IMG/VR virus record: IMGVR_UViG_3300036985_002823 | Span: 1-47,483 of that record | Source of the DNA: a virus | DNA length: 47,483 nucleotides | Strand: one strand, 5' to 3' | In this document: piece after piece, positions 2,528 through 47,483 of the stretch | Numbering within the stretch: the stretch's first letter is position 1 | How the letters are laid out: every line of letters begins with the position of its first letter | Program-made: the position numbers and the translations under genes | Notes under the pieces: model-generated | What the model saw: only the letters and a program-made list of their open reading frames with translations | Database searches by the model: none | Told to the model about the DNA's origin: nothing

Positions 2528-4774
2528 CATGAACTCTGAAGAGTTAAAATCATTATTAACTTATATCTATAACAATAATAAAATATTATTGGATAAAGGA
2601 TTGGCTGTACAAACAGTGAATGTAGAAGGTGAAGCAGGTGGTGGTAAAACTTCTACTATTCTTCAGTTAGCTAATGAGTTAGGTTTAGAGTTAGTTAGAA
2701 GAAATTTAGCAGAGTATGAGGATGTATCGGATTATAAAAAATAAATTTGCATAAATGGAAGAAATATAGTATCTTGTAGTTAAAACTTAACTTATAGAAC
2801 TATGAAAAATCTATTTAAAGACTTAAAAACTAAAGATCTTAAAAACAAGTGTGGTATTTATATTATACAATGTAAAGAACACTTATATGTAGGAAGTAGT
2901 AAATCATTGTGGTCAAGATTATATGAGCATAGATATGACATGAAAAATAATATTCATGGTAATGGCTATTTACAACATTGTTTTAATAAATATGGAGAAA
3001 CAGAAATCTATTTTAAAATAGTAGAATTTTGTGAACCTGTTGATAGAACTGTTAGAGAAGCTTATTATATAAAAGAATTAAAAGCTACAATGAATATGCA
3101 AGATCCTGTAACAAAAGTATTAAGTAAAGTATCAAGAGAAAAAATCTCAAAATCTTTAAAAGAATCTTATGCTAGCAATCAACATAAAAAACCAGATAAA
3201 AAACCTGTTGAAATGTATGATTTAGCTGGAGATTTTATAAAAGACTTTATTAATTGTGAAGAAGCTGCTAAGGAATTAGGAGTATCAACACATCACATAC
3301 AAGTTACAGCATCTAAATACTATGAAGGAAGAGTATGTGGAATAAACAGATTTAGATACAAAGACTCTAAAGTTTTACCACAAAAATTCAACTACATTAG
3401 ACCTCAAGTTATTACAAAATATTTTGATTTATTTATTATTGAACCTACAGGAGAAGAAGTTCCTGTAAAAAAGGGTATCAAGAATATAAATCAAATGCTT
3501 GTAGATCAACTTGTTAAAGGTAAAAGAGAAATAGTCTTAAAAGCAAAACCTACTAGGTCCGAGTAAAATTGTGTGAACTCAGGGAACAGCCTTATAAACA
3601 AGGCCAATCCTGATCCAAGTACTATAGAAATATAGTAAAGGAGCAACGACTAGGTAAAGTAATCTTAACAGGTGGTGCTGAAGACAAAATACCCAAGAGC
3701 GCACAACTATATTTTAATGCTACCAAGTATTAATAAAATATAGATGATATAGTCTGAACACTGTGTATACATAAAGACAGTGAGCTATAGGATAAAGAGC
3801 CTATAGGATAACAAATGTTAGTAGGTTATCCTTGTAAAGAACATGAGATGGTAGGTAAAGATGGTGCATTCAGATGGGTTGTAGAAGGTACTATGCCTCA
3901 GTATATTCAAGCTGGTTATAAACCAACTGGTGAGAAGAGAATGACACATGCTGCACCAGAGTGGGCACAAGGTAGAACACAGCCTGTGTTATTGTTATTA
4001 GATGATTATAGTAGAGCAACAGAGAAGTTTATCCAAGCAACTATGACATTGATAGAGACTCAGTGTTATAACAGCTGGTGTTTACCTCAAGGTTCATTTA
4101 TTGTATTAACTTCTAATCCAGATAATGGTAACTATTCTGTTAGTACAATGGATGCAGCTCAGAAGACTCGTGTTATCAATGTAAACTATAAGTTTGATGT
4201 TAATGTATGGGCTAGATATGCAGAGAAAACAGGTATAGATGGTAGATGTGTTAACTTTTTATTATTACATCCTGAGTTAATGGAAGGTGAAGGCATTAAT
4301 GCTAGGACTGTAACTATGTTCTTTAACTCATTGATGTCTGTTACTAACTTTGCAGACTCTTTACCACTTATTCAACAATTAGGCGAGGCAACTACTAACC
4401 CAGAGTTTACTACCATGTTTACTACATTTATCAACAACAAGTTAGATAAGTTAGTATCTCCTAAAGATATGTTACTTCATGATAATGAAGCATATATCAT
4501 GGGTGAGTTAAACAGCTGTATTGGTACTGATAATAACTATCGTGCAGATATTGCAAGTGTATTAGCCACAAGGTTAATTAACTTTACTTGTAACTATTCT
4601 GATAACAACTCTATTACTCCAAAGATCACTGATAGATTAATCAGATTCTCTACAGATCAAATATTTACTAATGACTTAAAGTATATCATTGTTAAGCAAA
4701 TACTTAATCACAATAAGCAAAAGTTTCAAAAGCTTATGTTAAACCCTGATGTATTGAAAATGTCAATGAAATAA
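2505..4774 (+). CDS. MoxR-like AAA+ ATPase, two exons split by a group I intron
   Basis: The gene is in two exons, 2505-2732 and 3818-4774, giving about 394 residues after splicing. Exon 1 holds Walker A, GEAGGGKTS (residues 42-50), and ends ...YEDVSD. Exon 2 starts LVGYP and holds Walker B in PVLLLLDDYSRA (D138-D139) and a sensor-1-like Asn in VLTSNPDNGNY. Joining the exons gives the VSD-LVGYP sequence expected of MoxR-type ATPases, without a frame break. Unspliced reading stops at 2742-2744. MoxR ATPases act with VWA proteins, and the VWA gene overlaps this one upstream. An ATG at 3815 is intron sequence and not a true start. Starts at 2505 and 2529 are both possible. Confidence 0.88.
2733..3817 (+). 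mobile_element. Group I intron with GIY-YIG homing gene
   Basis: The boundaries are set by the protein join and by group I rules: the upstream exon ends in T (2732) and the intron ends in G (3817). The core lies after the endonuclease gene. Pairings visible by eye are P4 (TCAGG 3579-3583 with CCTGA 3609-3613), P5 (GCCTT 3589-3593 with AAGGC 3600-3604), P6a (3621-3626 with 3631-3636), P7 (GACTA 3648-3652 with TAGTC 3750-3754) and P9 (CACTGT 3759-3764 with ACAGTG 3777-3782). A further hairpin pairs 3785-3790 with 3801-3806. I could not settle P1, P3 or P8. The non-coding parts, 2733-2801 and 3567-3817, hold only ribozyme sequence. Confidence 0.87.
2802..3566 (+). CDS. Intron-encoded GIY-YIG homing endonuclease
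   Basis: This 254-residue protein has the GIY-YIG nuclease domain at the N-terminus: G18-I-Y20, Y29-V-G31, R39, H43 and the catalytic Glu near E87 in VREAYYIKEL. The C-terminal part (about 135-190) contains VEMYDLAGDFIKDF, then CEEAAKELGVSTHHI and INRFRYKD, the pattern of a NUMOD1/IENR1-type DNA-binding helix-turn-helix. It lies inside the intron, 5' of the ribozyme core, as many homing genes do. It probably cuts intron-less copies of the ATPase gene and so spreads the intron. All key residues are present, so it looks active. Confidence 0.93.
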   Translation: MKNLFKDLKTKDLKNKCGIYIIQCKEHLYVGSSKSLWSRLYEHRYDMKNNIHGNGYLQHCFNKYGETEIYFKIVEFCEPVDRTVREAYYIKELKATMNMQDPVTKVLSKVSREKISKSLKESYASNQHKKPDKKPVEMYDLAGDFIKDFINCEEAAKELGVSTHHIQVTASKYYEGRVCGINRFRYKDSKVLPQKFNYIRPQVITKYFDLFIIEPTGEEVPVKKGIKNINQMLVDQLVKGKREIVLKAKPTRSE

Positions 4775-8727: not shown

Positions 8728-10631
8728 GCCAGAACCACTATGTAATTGACTATGAGACTCTGGCAGATTGTACTGTTCTTGTTGCAGAGCACTATAAAAA
8801 AGATGTAATCCACACTTTTGTAGTAGGTCACCTTAAAAATGACATTAAAGAACTATATGAATTCTTAAAAGGTAATGCAGCCAATAATGAATGGCATATA
8901 TCTTTTAATGGTTTAAGTTTTGACTCTCAGGTAACTGAGTTTATTCTTAAGAAAGGTCCTGGACTATTTAAACTATCCGGTGATGTAATTGCTGGAATGA
9001 TACATAAACTAGCTCAGGATATTATAAGAAGACAAGAGAACAATGAGTTTCCTCAATTTAGTGAGAAGGATCTATCTATAAAACAGATAGATGTATTTAA
9101 GCTAAATCACTGGGATAACCCGGCCAAAAGATCTAGTCTAAAATGGATTCAGTATTCTATGGACTGGCACAATATTTTGGATATGCCTATTCATCACAGT
9201 ACTAGTGTTACTACTCAAGAACAACTTGATACAATAGTTACATATTGTATTAATGATGTTAAGTCTACCAAACAGATTATGAATCTTAGTAAAGATCAGA
9301 TTAATCTTAGGAAAGACTTGACAAAAGAGTATGGTATTAATCTGTACAGTGCATCTGAGCCAAGGATATCTAAAGAGCTATTCCTTATGTTTCTTAGTGA
9401 TGAAACAGGCATAAAGAAATATGACCTGAGAAACCTGAGAACATCAAGAGACTTCATTAAAGTATCAGATATTATATTACCTTATACCAACTTTAAACAT
9501 CCTACATTTCAGAATTTACTTTTAAACTTTAAAAGTTTAGTAATTAATGCTAATGATACCAAGGGTGGATTCAAGTACAGTTTCAACTATAAAAATGTAA
9601 AAACTGACTTTGGTCTAGGTGGTGTGCATGGTTGTATTAAATCTGGAGTATATGAAGCTAAGGAAGGAATGGTAATTATGACTTCAGATGTTACTAGTTT
9701 TTATCCTAATCTGGCTATTAGAAACAAGTGGGCTCCAGCTCATTTACCTAAAGACATATTCTGTGATAAGTATGAATGGTTTTTTGAGGAAAGAAAAAAG
9801 ATACCCAAGAAAGATCCTAAGAACTATGTATACAAGATTATTCTAAATAGTACTTATGGTCTCAGTAATGACAAGAACTCTTTTTTGTATGATCCTGAGT
9901 TTACCATGAGAATTACAATCAATGGTCAGCTTACTCTAATGATGCTGTATGAAATGCTATCTGAGGGAATTCCTAACAGTATACCACTCATGCAAAATAC
10001 AGATGGTCTAGAGATGATGATCCCGGTAGAATATAAAGAGAAGTATATACAAATATGTTCTGAATGGGAAAAGATAACTAACCTACAGCTAGAGCATGAT
10101 GAGTATTCTAAGATGGTAATTGCAGATGTGAATAATTACATAGCTGTTAATACAGCTGGTAAATCAAAATGTAAAGGTAGATTTGAGTACAAAGAACTTG
10201 CCTTACACAAAAACAAATCACACTTAATCATACCTAAAGCTTTGAGTGCATACTTTATTGAGAACAAACTACCTGAGCAATTCTTACAAGAAAATAGAAA
10301 CATACTTGATTATTGTGCAGGAGTTAAAATCAAAGGTGAGTGGGAATTTCAGCAGACTTGTATAATAGACAGAGAAATAACAAGACAAACACTACAAAAA
10401 ACTCTAAGGTATTATATCTCCAACAATGGTTGTAAAATCTATAAGGTAAACAAAAATGATAAGAGAGAGATACAGCTAGAGTCAGGTAAGTGGATGCAGA
10501 CACTATTTAATGTGCTTGTAGACAAACCCTGGGCAGAATACAACATAGATGAGTCTTATTATCTAGACAAAATCTATAGAGAGATAAACAATATTCTACC
10601 TAAAGAAACAAAACAACTTAAATTATTTTAA
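8724..10631 (+). CDS. Family B DNA polymerase with 3'-5' exonuclease
   Basis: The 635-residue enzyme copies the phage genome. The exonuclease motifs are ExoI DYETL (D9, E11), ExoII FNGLSFD (N62, D67) and ExoIII YCINDVKS (Y174, D178). The polymerase motifs are A, SDVTSFYPNL (D322); B, KIILNSTYG (N375); and C, QNTDGLEM (D427). In motif C the first Asp of the usual DTD is Asn, while the second, catalytic Asp is kept. At 635 residues it is shorter than most cellular family B enzymes, as expected for phage types. It overlaps the ExoX-like gene by four bases. A family B polymerase is known in several crAss-like groups. Confidence 0.94.
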   Translation: MSQNHYVIDYETLADCTVLVAEHYKKDVIHTFVVGHLKNDIKELYEFLKGNAANNEWHISFNGLSFDSQVTEFILKKGPGLFKLSGDVIAGMIHKLAQDIIRRQENNEFPQFSEKDLSIKQIDVFKLNHWDNPAKRSSLKWIQYSMDWHNILDMPIHHSTSVTTQEQLDTIVTYCINDVKSTKQIMNLSKDQINLRKDLTKEYGINLYSASEPRISKELFLMFLSDETGIKKYDLRNLRTSRDFIKVSDIILPYTNFKHPTFQNLLLNFKSLVINANDTKGGFKYSFNYKNVKTDFGLGGVHGCIKSGVYEAKEGMVIMTSDVTSFYPNLAIRNKWAPAHLPKDIFCDKYEWFFEERKKIPKKDPKNYVYKIILNSTYGLSNDKNSFLYDPEFTMRITINGQLTLMMLYEMLSEGIPNSIPLMQNTDGLEMMIPVEYKEKYIQICSEWEKITNLQLEHDEYSKMVIADVNNYIAVNTAGKSKCKGRFEYKELALHKNKSHLIIPKALSAYFIENKLPEQFLQENRNILDYCAGVKIKGEWEFQQTCIIDREITRQTLQKTLRYYISNNGCKIYKVNKNDKREIQLESGKWMQTLFNVLVDKPWAEYNIDESYYLDKIYREINNILPKETKQLKLF

Positions 10632-43367: not shown

Positions 43368-45131
43368 TTAATCCACAAAATCAAGCCAACCACCTGTTTT
43401 ATATACATTTGGGTTATAAATATTTTTACCACCCGGGCCAAACACATCATAGTTTCTAGTAAACAATTTGTTTATACTAGACTGGATGTTCTTAGATGTA
43501 CCATACTTTTTAGCTTTTCTTTTAAGTTTTGGTGGTGTATATGGACCACCTCTTCTAAATTCATCTTCTCCTATTTCTCCACCTTCTTCTTTATAAGGAT
43601 ATTTTTCATAAGCTTTTTCAAACTCTTTTTCAAACTTTGAATCTTTCTTTAAAAGTATTTTATTTACATAATCTTTTGTTTCTTTAGGTAAACTGTTTAC
43701 CCAGTTATAAGAATTATAAATATCAATACCTTTTTTCTTTTGTTCATTAAGATGTTTTAAAGTATTTCCTCTTCCCCAGTTATAAGCAGCAAGAGCTTTT
43801 GCTAATTTAACACTATCTTTTTGACCAGGTTTATTTATAAAGCTTGAATCATAAAGGTCATTCATATACCATTTTTGAACTTTTGCATTAACTTCAGGAT
43901 CAAATATATCTTCTCCTTTTTTTAACACTCCAGCTTTAATTGCATCAGTTTCAACATTTTCTTTTATTTGTGCTAATCCTCTTGCTTTAGCAGGTGATAT
44001 AGCTTTAGGATTAAAGGTTGATTCTTTAAATTGTTGCCTTACTAAAAGATTTTTATCTATACCTGTTACAGGTTCTTGATTATTAAAGTTTGGATTAAAT
44101 ACTTGTCTACTATGTTGTTGTACAAATAAAGTATTAGGATCATTATAAATATTAAAACCCCCATCCTGATACTCATCAAGCCATCCACCTTCTTTCATAT
44201 GAGTATGAGTCTTAGTGTTTTGTCCACCAAAAGGATAATGACCTGTTATGTTAGGTAGAGAAGGATCTCCTCCATAAGCAAAATCTCCATGTTCACCTAA
44301 TTCTATTTGTGGAAATATATTTCTTCCACCATACTTAGGAACTTCACCCTGTCTCATATCCCAAGTAAATCCTGAGTCATCTTTAGCACCTAAAGCTGCT
44401 TGTACAGCATCTGATAGTCTTCCAGCTTTAAAGCTTTTATTTGCAATATTTATTGCTTTATCTGAACTTTTCCATTTACTAGGATTAATATATGGTATTT
44501 TATCTTTTAATATTTTTGTAGTTGCTCCTAAAGTTTCATCAAGTTCTTTTCCACCAGCTTTGTTATAATTTTGGTACATCTTAAAAGCTTGATCTATAAA
44601 CTGTTGTTGTTTACTAGCAGGTAAATATTTTGAAGCTTTAACAGCATCTTGCAATAAGCCAAATCCACCAGTTATAATTTTTCCACTTTTTCCTATTTTA
44701 CCTAATAAAGGTATAGCACCAAATGCTTCAAGAGCTGTTTCACCGCTAAGACCTGTATTTTTATAAGCTCTATAAACATCATCCCATGATGATATACCAG
44801 TTGGATCAAATACTTCTGCAATGTTTTCTAACCAAGAATCTCTATCTTCCACTTGTTTACCTTTTTGAGCCATAGGTATTTCAGTAACATACTGACCTGG
44901 GAATGTATAGTCCATACCCGGGTACATCATCTGACCATAACCTAAGTCATCTTCTCCATATACAGGATAATCTACACCCTGCATGGTTATATCATTAGAG
45001 GGAATTCTTGTAACCTGGCCTGGATATTTCCACTGACCTAAGTTAGTGTAAAGTACATCATGTTTGTAAGGATTTGTTTTACCCACAGGTTTTCTGATGT
45101 ACTCATTTCTAGGTATTTTATTCTGTTTCAT
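43368..45131 (-). CDS. Virion protein with lytic transglycosylase (SLT) domain
   Basis: In this 587-residue protein, residues about 360-455 match a soluble lytic transglycosylase fold: LLVRQQFKESTFNPKAIS with catalytic E370, then ARGLAQIKENV, then ALAAYNWGRGN. Such domains cleave peptidoglycan glycan strands and, in a virion, help DNA and proteins pass the cell wall. The N-terminal part is structural (YPGQVTRIPSND, MDYTFPGQYV). Gly-Gly motifs like those of the 1296-aa protein recur, including EGGWLDEYQDGG and TGGWLDFVD at the extreme C-terminus. The start overlaps the stop of the GIY-YIG gene (TAATG), which seems to have been inserted just in front of it. Confidence 0.88.
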   Translation of the reverse strand: MKQNKIPRNEYIRKPVGKTNPYKHDVLYTNLGQWKYPGQVTRIPSNDITMQGVDYPVYGEDDLGYGQMMYPGMDYTFPGQYVTEIPMAQKGKQVEDRDSWLENIAEVFDPTGISSWDDVYRAYKNTGLSGETALEAFGAIPLLGKIGKSGKIITGGFGLLQDAVKASKYLPASKQQQFIDQAFKMYQNYNKAGGKELDETLGATTKILKDKIPYINPSKWKSSDKAINIANKSFKAGRLSDAVQAALGAKDDSGFTWDMRQGEVPKYGGRNIFPQIELGEHGDFAYGGDPSLPNITGHYPFGGQNTKTHTHMKEGGWLDEYQDGGFNIYNDPNTLFVQQHSRQVFNPNFNNQEPVTGIDKNLLVRQQFKESTFNPKAISPAKARGLAQIKENVETDAIKAGVLKKGEDIFDPEVNAKVQKWYMNDLYDSSFINKPGQKDSVKLAKALAAYNWGRGNTLKHLNEQKKKGIDIYNSYNWVNSLPKETKDYVNKILLKKDSKFEKEFEKAYEKYPYKEEGGEIGEDEFRRGGPYTPPKLKRKAKKYGTSKNIQSSINKLFTRNYDVFGPGGKNIYNPNVYKTGGWLDFVD

Positions 45132-45846
45132 TATCTTGGTGAATAAAGTGTTTTAGTATCTGTTCTTCTATTTGATCTTATATTATAAACAGTATATGTA
45201 GAAATATTATATTTTAAAGCAATTTCTTTAGTAGTCATTTCTTTATTTTTTATAATATTTATTATTTCAAGTACTGTATCAATAGAAAGTTTTCTGCTTC
45301 TATGATTTAAGCTTACTTTTAATCTGTGTTCTAAGGTATGAGTTTTACCTTTTTTAATATTTGATATTTTATTTCTAGTTTCTTTAGATACAATTACTCC
45401 TTTTCTATGTCCTACTCTTCCTTCTAAAAAAGATTGTTTTATAGCTTTTGATAAATTTTGTTTGTGTTCCTCTGTTCTTATGCCTGGTTTTTTACCTTTT
45501 CTTATTTCAGACATTTTTAATTTAACTTTATCTGTATGTTTTCTACCTCTCATTGGGGCAGTTGCAGAATAAGTACAATTTAATCCTTTATTAACACAAT
45601 CATAAAATTTTATATAAAACTCTTCCATTGGATTAATATCATATTTATCTAAGTTATTTGCTATAATTTCAAATATATGATTTTCAAATGTATATTTATT
45701 AAATGATTTATACAGTTTTACTTGAGTTTTTGCTGAACAGTTTTTATAAAAATTTAATCTTTTTTTATAATTAAATGTTTGCCCAATGTATATTCTACCG
45801 GAAGGACTAGTAATTTTATATATAACACCTGTATTCATCATCTTGG
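45127..45846. repeat. Near-perfect direct repeats flanking the free-standing endonuclease
   Basis: TTCATTATCTTGG at 45127-45139 and TTCATCATCTTGG at 45834-45846 agree at 12 of 13 bases. On the minus strand each reads CCAAGAT[A/G]ATGAA and holds the end of one gene (SPR-stop) overlapping the ATG of the next. Removing one copy plus the endonuclease gene would rebuild a single stop/start junction between the two virion genes. Confidence 0.85.
45131..45841 (-). CDS. Free-standing GIY-YIG homing endonuclease
   Basis: This 236-residue protein has the nuclease domain V6-I-Y8, Y18-I-G20, R28 and a Glu at 73/74 (PMEEFYIKFY). It continues with repeated NUMOD3-type DNA-binding motifs (GRKHTDKVKLKMSEIRKGKK, and others to about residue 190) and a helix-turn-helix at 195-232 (TTKEIALKYNISTYTVYNI). 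The key residues are intact. It lies between two virion genes with tiny overlaps at both ends. Its last residues, LYSPR, copy the last residues of the upstream protein. It probably cuts the same site in phages that lack it. No intron core is visible around it. Confidence 0.92.
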   Translation of the reverse strand: MMNTGVIYKITSPSGRIYIGQTFNYKKRLNFYKNCSAKTQVKLYKSFNKYTFENHIFEIIANNLDKYDINPMEEFYIKFYDCVNKGLNCTYSATAPMRGRKHTDKVKLKMSEIRKGKKPGIRTEEHKQNLSKAIKQSFLEGRVGHRKGVIVSKETRNKISNIKKGKTHTLEHRLKVSLNHRSRKLSIDTVLEIINIIKNKEMTTKEIALKYNISTYTVYNIRSNRRTDTKTLYSPR

Positions 45847-47483
45847 AGAGTATAAACTTTTTAAATCCGCGATCATGATCAACATTTTGTAGTTCATGTT
45901 CTGACCAGCAATAACTCTCTTTCTTAATAGAACTGAAGTTGTATAGTGTCTGAATTTCTTTCTCTGTAATTCAGGTTTGTTATAGTTTAAGTTAGCCGGG
46001 TTAAGTACTCTTACATAACCATTAGGAGCTGTATCCCAAATAGGTCTTTGTGCTGCAAGATTGAATTCACCCCTGTCATCTGTAATATCCCAGAACTGAT
46101 TGAATCTGTACTTGTTCTCTTCTTTAGAAAACAGTATATCTATATTAGTTGGATTGATAATAGGATACTGGAGAATAGCATTAGGATTATCTTTAGGTTT
46201 AATATTTAATCTCAACAATCCTGATACCTGTTCTGTGTTGTAAAGAACAGCCTCATCAAAGTTGTAGTCAAGCACATGGAATCTGTCATAACAGTTAGCT
46301 GCATATTTATAAGCTTCCATTATATATTCTATACTTCTTATGCTATTAACTGTGCCCCCGGTATTTACAGTAAACTCAACCTCAAATGGAAAGTTAAATC
46401 CATAGTAGTTACAGTACAAGTCACATCTTTCATTATGAATCCATATTGACTTTCTATCATAAGGACTCACAGTCATAAATGTATTCTTACCTGGTAGGTT
46501 AAGAGTTGGGTGCCAGTCATGGTAACTAATCCATCCATCAGTTTTTGGATCATAACTTACTGTCCATGAAGCATCTTGAAAATATAAAGGATCACCTAAT
46601 TCTATAATAGTTTCAGTAGGAAGATACATAAACTGGTTAGTACCAGGTATGTATTCAAAGTCATCTGCAGTAAATGGATTCTTTAATATAAAATCTCTTT
46701 TACTAAAGTATAACAATCCATTTTCATTATCATACATAGACTGACATCCTATACCTATTACAGGATTATCTATAAGACTAAAGTCTGGGAATATTTCAGT
46801 TAGCTGATATGGTAGATATTGTGCAAACCACCACTTCATGTTTACATTAGATACTTCTTTAAGACCACCAGCCATGCTAAATATCTTACCTTGGTTTTGA
46901 CTTATCCAGTATAAACCAGCAGGTGTATTTATAACACTTAATCTATTCTGACAACTAGCATACTCATGAGATGCATCAACATTAATTATTTGTTGCATAG
47001 GTTGTGAAAACAAACCACCATCTCCAATAGTAAGCTTGGTACCTAAATCAGTTTGTAACTGATCAGTACCTTGGAATTGTACAGGACTTGCAGCATCAAA
47101 AAATATCATAGCACCACTTTTGTTCACGGGCTTGATACATGTAACTACATTATTAAAGTCATAATAGTTATTCGGTAAAAAGACTCTCCAACCATCTTTA
47201 AGTCCTTCATACTGAGCCGGCAATGAGTATATTACTCTAGTTGGTTGATACACAAAACAAGTTGCAGCATCATAAGGATTGTAACTTGGCTCTTGAGTAT
47301 TTGCCCATGATGTATAGTTGAATGGTAACTTAGAAGTACTTAATGATATATCATACTTGTAATAGTTACCAGACTTAATAATATCTGTAGCAAATAGATC
47401 TTTAGTACTTCCTCCTAAATAAGCATTATAGAATTTTTCTCTAGCTAGTTCACCATAATCTCTAAAAGCTAAGTTGATTTCTG
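45838..47483 (-). CDS. Tail/muzzle-type virion protein, 5' part outside the window
   Basis: The frame is open to the right edge, so 547 residues are visible and the true start is beyond 47483. A GTG codon at 47253 is internal and not the start; the frame before it reads ...SYNPYDAATCFVYQP without a stop. The visible part is beta-rich with aromatic repeats typical of propeller-like tail proteins: GDGGLFSQPMQQIINVD, NTPAGLYWISQNQGKIF, and later GIGCQSMYDNENGLLYFSKR and VSYDPKTDGWISYHDWHP. I associate this pattern with crAss-like muzzle or tail-hub proteins, by memory. It ends ADLKSLYSPR and overlaps the endonuclease start by a few bases. Confidence 0.82.
   Translation of the reverse strand, partial: EINLAFRDYGELAREKFYNAYLGGSTKDLFATDIIKSGNYYKYDISLSTSKLPFNYTSWANTQEPSYNPYDAATCFVYQPTRVIYSLPAQYEGLKDGWRVFLPNNYYDFNNVVTCIKPVNKSGAMIFFDAASPVQFQGTDQLQTDLGTKLTIGDGGLFSQPMQQIINVDASHEYASCQNRLSVINTPAGLYWISQNQGKIFSMAGGLKEVSNVNMKWWFAQYLPYQLTEIFPDFSLIDNPVIGIGCQSMYDNENGLLYFSKRDFILKNPFTADDFEYIPGTNQFMYLPTETIIELGDPLYFQDASWTVSYDPKTDGWISYHDWHPTLNLPGKNTFMTVSPYDRKSIWIHNERCDLYCNYYGFNFPFEVEFTVNTGGTVNSIRSIEYIMEAYKYAANCYDRFHVLDYNFDEAVLYNTEQVSGLLRLNIKPKDNPNAILQYPIINPTNIDILFSKEENKYRFNQFWDITDDRGEFNLAAQRPIWDTAPNGYVRVLNPANLNYNKPELQRKKFRHYTTSVLLRKRVIAGQNMNYKMLIMIADLKSLYSPR

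Follow-up and report, generated by a model that had tools for sequence, protein, structure and literature searches.

A free-standing GIY-YIG endonuclease gene lying between two versions of a muzzle gene end in crAss-like phages

Homing endonucleases spread when a carrier allele serves as the template for repair of a cut empty allele and the flanking sequences are co-converted, and the free-standing endonucleases of phage T4, according to the sections of the review drawn on here, are intergenic insertions whose cut sites lie hundreds to thousands of bp away (PMC2988022). In the mitochondrial atp6, atp9, cox2 and nad3 genes of Glomus, an inserted C-terminus is joined to the gene core and is followed by an endonuclease ORF and then by the native C-terminus (Beaudet et al. 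2013, PMC3630166). The differences between the two C-termini of Glomus atp6 are largely synonymous, and atp6 of Allomyces macrogynus is cited in the same study as an example of the same type (PMC3630166). Here we describe a crAss-like phage locus that probably arose in a comparable way, a GIY-YIG endonuclease gene having inserted near the stop codon of a virion protein gene so that a re-spelled gene end now lies upstream and the displaced native end serves as the C-terminus and stop of the endonuclease.

The DNA analysed, hereafter the window, is a virus record of 47,483 bases, and the three genes at the junction lie on its minus strand without gaps. The first is the C-terminal part of the gene for the muzzle protein, a tail-tip gene product of crAss-like phage; it is truncated by the window end (45838..47481, minus strand, 547 aa), matches the Pfam family PF25731 crAss_MUZ (E 1.4e-10) and had 34 relatives at 45–80% identity in a first IMG/VR scan. 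It is followed by a free-standing GIY-YIG/NUMOD3 endonuclease gene (45131..45841, minus strand, 236 aa), assigned through Pfam and phrog_314, and then by a gene for a lysozyme-like virion protein (43368..45131, minus strand; Pfam SLT, E 1.2e-16) whose start overlaps the endonuclease stop. The lysozyme gene is immediately 3' of the muzzle gene in four relatives (L001, L002, L003 and L031). In GenBank phages the 4.1-kb region had no match at the DNA level, and only distant relatives were found at the protein level.

The muzzle and endonuclease genes end nearly alike. The muzzle tail, here termed copy A (45838..45867, minus strand), encodes DLKSLYSPR and a TGA stop with the deviant, re-spelled codons GAT TTA AAA AGT TTA TAC TCT CCA AGA TGA, and the endonuclease tail, copy B (45131..45160, minus strand), encodes in frame residues 228–236 of the endonuclease, DTKTLYSPR, and a TAA stop with the codons GAT ACT AAA ACA CTT TAT TCA CCA AGA TAA. 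The muzzle stop (TGA) shares bases with the start of the endonuclease, giving ATGA with the first of two adjacent ATGs and TGATG with the second; the endonuclease stop (TAA) and the lysozyme ATG are likewise combined in TAATG. These overlaps fall within two 13-bp direct repeats on the minus strand, a left one, CCAAGATGATGAA (45834..45846), and a right one, CCAAGATAATGAA (45127..45139), which constitutes the native stop/start overlap and is also present at the empty sites L001, L031 and L121. A preliminary description of this DNA had recorded that both tails read D-x-K-x-LYSPR with synonymous codon differences at Leu, Tyr and Ser, that a stop overlaps the next start on both sides, and that the flanks are direct repeats identical at 12 of 13 positions; the letters bear out all three statements. 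Its view that the locus is the footprint of an insertion, in which the target end was duplicated and the stop/start overlap kept on both sides, likewise holds, and empty sites exist in relatives.

The endonuclease combines two features expected of a GIY-YIG homing endonuclease, a catalytic motif with its Arg, Glu and Asn residues and a modular DNA-binding region. The GIY-YIG domain spans residues 5–62 (45656..45829, minus strand) and, although its Pfam score of 17.7 lies below the cut-off of 22.6 (E 0.0046), it contains the motif GVIY...IYIG; E73 and N88 are located just past it. The NUMOD3 DNA-binding motif at residues 99–119 (45485..45547, minus strand) scores 38.1 bits, above the cut-off of 20.4, and the match to the phrog_314 homing endonuclease has an E value of 4.8e-22. 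A predicted C-terminal helix-turn-helix at residues 187–222 (45176..45283, minus strand) is formed by AlphaFold2 helices at 187–198, 204–210 and 215–222. The enzyme looks intact, since all 24 aligned endonucleases share R28, E73 and N88. The AlphaFold2 model is confident in the catalytic domain, over residues 1–90 (block mean pLDDT 88–98), and gives the C-terminal helices, and its overall pTM of 0.43 means that the domain arrangement cannot be read from it. Three stretches have a pLDDT below 50, and one of them coincides exactly with the copied nonapeptide, residues 228–236, which is predicted to be disordered, beyond the helix-turn-helix and outside the predicted fold. Where the copied tail stands, other members of the endonuclease family end in a different motif, of the NKTNLIYA type, and most likely the enzyme carries the tail only as a passenger. 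No credible Rfam match was found across the junction (44900–46100), which led us to reject an RNA element there, whether a group I intron or of another kind; as the muzzle frame is also complete upstream, the gene is free-standing and is neither intron- nor intein-borne. Elsewhere in the window, a second GIY-YIG endonuclease gene with a NUMOD1 motif (2802–3566, plus strand) overlaps a group I intron at 3529–3776 (Rfam RF00028, 64.6 bits). An ATPase-like gene, with the ORF 3815–4774 as its 3' part, appears to be interrupted by this intron.

Four protein-guided IMG/VR scans yielded 143 distinct muzzle 3' junctions, 141 of which have no GIY-YIG gene adjoining the muzzle end. The muzzle protein terminates in S-x-R at all 143 (SPR in 74, SLR in 34, SFR in 7, and others), and most have the TAATG overlap. 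The S-x-R end is conserved across these junctions (L001–L356) even though the sequence preceding it varies, and its presence in all 143, 141 of them without the gene, establishes that the tail is a property of the muzzle protein itself. Comparison with relatives lacking the endonuclease had been proposed in the preliminary description, which would have been undermined by a different, longer muzzle end in such genomes; in the empty-site relatives L001, L002, L003, L031, L121 and L169 the upstream protein keeps the same end. Among genome contigs there were four hits to the muzzle protein, including one of 36% identity (L358) whose contig was binned as a Woesearchaeota archaeon but is probably phage DNA placed in the wrong bin. 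A different GIY-YIG endonuclease gene occupies the same muzzle 3' junction, from 5162, in another crAss-like phage (L155 and its near-duplicate L157), which marks the junction as a repeated insertion site; no muzzle-end copy is detectable in this gene, which shows that insertion at this site does not require one. In L002, whose muzzle site is empty, a GIY-YIG gene lies directly 3' of the lysozyme gene (9304–9918) and carries no copy of the lysozyme end.

The layout recurs in one further genome, L004 (IMGVR_UViG_3300020167_000001), in which a 53%-identical endonuclease occupies the matching muzzle site, and these two genomes are the only carriers with a tail copy. In both, the endonuclease ORF lies between two muzzle 3' ends, the upstream one in frame. 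The L004 muzzle ends in KMLVMLSDVKNLLSPR and the L004 endonuclease in SDLMLADIKNLLSPR; the copy, LMLADIKNLLSPR in the endonuclease and VMLSDVKNLLSPR in the muzzle, spans 13 residues, as against 9 in the window.

That such tails might match through chance or convergence gains a little from the slight similarity of the family end motif to the copied tail (KTNLIYA vs KTLYSPR). Yet the end-anchored BLOSUM62 score of muzzle against endonuclease tail is 38 over 9 residues in the window and 55 in L004, and 3,146 unrelated pairings of 22 other endonuclease ends with the 143 muzzle tails reached a maximum of 24. Furthermore, copy B and the native muzzle end of L121 have the same sequence (CTTTATTCACCAAGATAATGAAACAGAA), the 28 identical nt running across the stop, and the insertion site is the same in two phages. 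Chance is thus excluded for practical purposes. We also rejected tail copying as a general habit of the endonuclease family, as the end of the upstream gene was copied in only 1 of 77 relatives with a readable upstream gene, and that one, L039, is on the same contig as L004.

Which of the two copies is native is seen most clearly in L004, whose endonuclease tail matches the muzzle end of the empty sister L002 at 31 of 36 nt over the last 12 codons, compared with 20 of 36 for the L004 muzzle's own end. Over the last 27 nt, both endonuclease tails have a mean identity of 0.75 to ten native tails, within the range of the natives among themselves (0.66–0.82), whereas the muzzle tails of the window (0.62) and L004 (0.55) are the two lowest of 14. 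For the leucine at position -5, both filled muzzle genes use TTA, and the two endonuclease tails, like nine of the ten native tails, use CTT; the codon usage of copy B is normal. The downstream version is therefore the native-like one and the upstream version the deviant one, clearly in L004 and more weakly in the window, where, against the nearest relative L001, copy B matches at 22 and copy A at 20 of 27 nt, a small difference. These codon comparisons indicate that the endonuclease tail is the displaced native muzzle end, a conclusion that would be weak from the window and its nearest relative by themselves. They reverse the direction proposed in the preliminary description, in which the endonuclease tail was a re-coded target end brought by the element and the muzzle gene kept its original ending: the near-identity of the two peptides with synonymous differences fits that version too, but the empty sites keep codons of the endonuclease-tail type in the comparisons with both genomes, and we consider it very improbable. 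Since it is the muzzle copy that deviates, any escape from cutting would be better placed there than in the endonuclease tail, and re-spelling as protection against cutting is a plausible reading of the codons.

The insertion we favour would have placed a free-standing GIY-YIG gene about 9 codons before the muzzle stop in the window, and 13 in L004. The muzzle gene would then have been completed upstream by a copy of its last codons, deviant in spelling but encoding almost the same peptide, and by a separate stop, on which the endonuclease starts. Having no end of its own, the endonuclease frame would run on into the displaced native muzzle end, the source of its 9 final residues, its stop and the TAATG overlap with the lysozyme gene. 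With such an arrangement the muzzle protein would retain its conserved C-terminus and the lysozyme gene its native start context, so that both translations are kept. Beyond the layout, the empty sites, the second case and the native-like copy inside the endonuclease, all of which are observed, we infer the following: the enzyme would recognise and cut the native muzzle end, carriers would be protected by the re-spelling of the upstream copy and the separation of the native copy from its upstream half, and the element would spread by double-strand-break repair with the re-spelled end carried along. The preservation of the muzzle peptide while its DNA differs speaks for this model; the weak signal of direction in the window against its nearest relative and the restriction to two cases both count against it. 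Because free-standing T4 enzymes cut far from their own genes, the cut need not be at the muzzle junction.

The codons of the muzzle end bear on the main rival, in which the end was duplicated in place, the downstream copy remaining native-like for the sake of lysozyme translation initiation and the upstream copy, needed only for its peptide, drifting synonymously; this would involve neither an imported end nor selection against cutting. In the window, none of the 11,376 15-codon stretches in the virion genes is more atypical than muzzle codons -24 to -10, which include the rare codons TTG, ATC, ATC and GCG (within codons -21 to -10, 45868..45903, minus strand), with shares of only 0.3–7% in their synonymous families, and in L004 codons -18 to -4 rank first of 3,090. 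Rare codons were rejected as proof by themselves after a control within the muzzle gene, in which 12 of 141 empty sites have the end among their five most atypical stretches (median percentile 0.14), so muzzle ends lean atypical anyway. Codon agreement with relatives over the last 14 codons is 0.64 among natives, 0.44 for the window and 0.27 for L004, drops that rank 44 of 552 and 22 of 562, respectively, among all such muzzle stretches. Re-spelling is thus well supported in L004 and moderately supported in the window. In favour of drift, codon-level conservation among empty relatives is higher over the last 9 codons (0.77) than over the gene body (0.62), which may point to a nucleotide-level signal in the native end, and the window tail (0.54) is near the level of its body (0.59). 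The L004 tail (0.29), however, is far below its body (0.60), beyond what relaxation alone would give, and in both genomes the atypical stretch extends to codons upstream of those copied. Duplication and drift can explain the window, L004 less well, and overall we regard this rival as unlikely. A degenerate, exact-pattern DNA scan of viral contigs for a donor of the re-spelled end returned 0 matches.

The nearest muzzle relatives of both carriers are empty (L001, identity 0.80 to the window; L002, 0.79 to L004), and with a closer empty relative for each carrier, the gene must have been gained or lost more than once. An alternative history, combinable with the insertion explanation, is that the endonuclease was joined once to the muzzle end in an ancestor of the window and L004, inherited vertically and lost in relatives. 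The two endonucleases are indeed mutual best matches by far (53%, the next about 41%); nonetheless, the closer empty relatives would demand several losses, and each endonuclease tail matches the peptide of its own lineage (LYSPR in the window and L001, LLSPR in L004 and L002), which makes this ancient fusion quite unlikely in our estimation. Over its final 120 nt the window muzzle gene is closer to L031 than to L001 (5:17 informative sites, against 202:106 elsewhere; Fisher p 1e-4), and the right flank is L001-like (56/60 vs 50/60). An upstream, one-sided co-conversion tract is only suggested by this pattern, since the muzzle gene is mosaic elsewhere too and the L031-like stretch ranks only 17 of 521. 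The window (45838–45915) and L031 also share a 4-residue insertion before the final muzzle segment (VLNQSMNYK / IAGQNMNYK) that is absent from L001, hinting at recombination at the muzzle 3' end.

Should the insertion model hold, a selfish gene would occupy the coding end of an essential virion gene with the help of neither intron nor intein, and would bring a replacement ending so spelled that the enzyme no longer cuts it. The many empty sites, the second carrier and the other endonuclease at the muzzle/lysozyme junction make the question directly testable, and the re-spelled codons would predict where the enzyme's recognition sequence lies.

How does the locus compare with known systems? The endonuclease of L155 and L157 shares its target gene, its position and, or nearly so, the stop/start overlaps on both sides, but differs from that of the window in lacking a detectable muzzle-end copy. 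In the T4 gene 60/mobA cassette, with its 50-nt translational bypass, an endonuclease has likewise inserted near part of a gene, together with a change in sequence that shields the carrier from cutting; in that cassette the change to the coding region is a bypassed insert, whereas here the gene end is duplicated and re-spelled. The T4 SegA-G (GIY-YIG) and MobA-E (HNH) genes are also free-standing, lie between essential genes and often overlap the upstream stop, as in UAAUGA at nrdA/mobE, but the sections of the review drawn on here mention no copy of an upstream gene's end such as is found in the window (PMC2988022). The closest likeness is to the mobile endonuclease ORFs of fungal mitochondria, which lie between two target 3' ends of which the upstream one completes the target and the downstream one is native and relative-like, with much of the difference synonymous and, in atp9, a GIY-YIG enzyme (PMC3630166). 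With this layout already published, the preliminary description's suggestion that no such tail had been described was overstated; no phage example was found in the open-access literature, and the arrangement is apparently undescribed in phages. It is enticing to speculate, albeit tentatively and with somewhat less than even confidence, that the locus represents a phage version of the fungal tail-replacing element, one that travels with a synonymously re-spelled target end, restores the protein, destroys the cut site and has given up its own stop for the target's native end. The two differ in host, in the length of the copied end, 9–13 codons here and about 50–280 nt in fungi, and in the fate of the native remnant, which in these phages forms the endonuclease's own C-terminus and stop together with the stop/start overlap of the next gene (PMC3630166).
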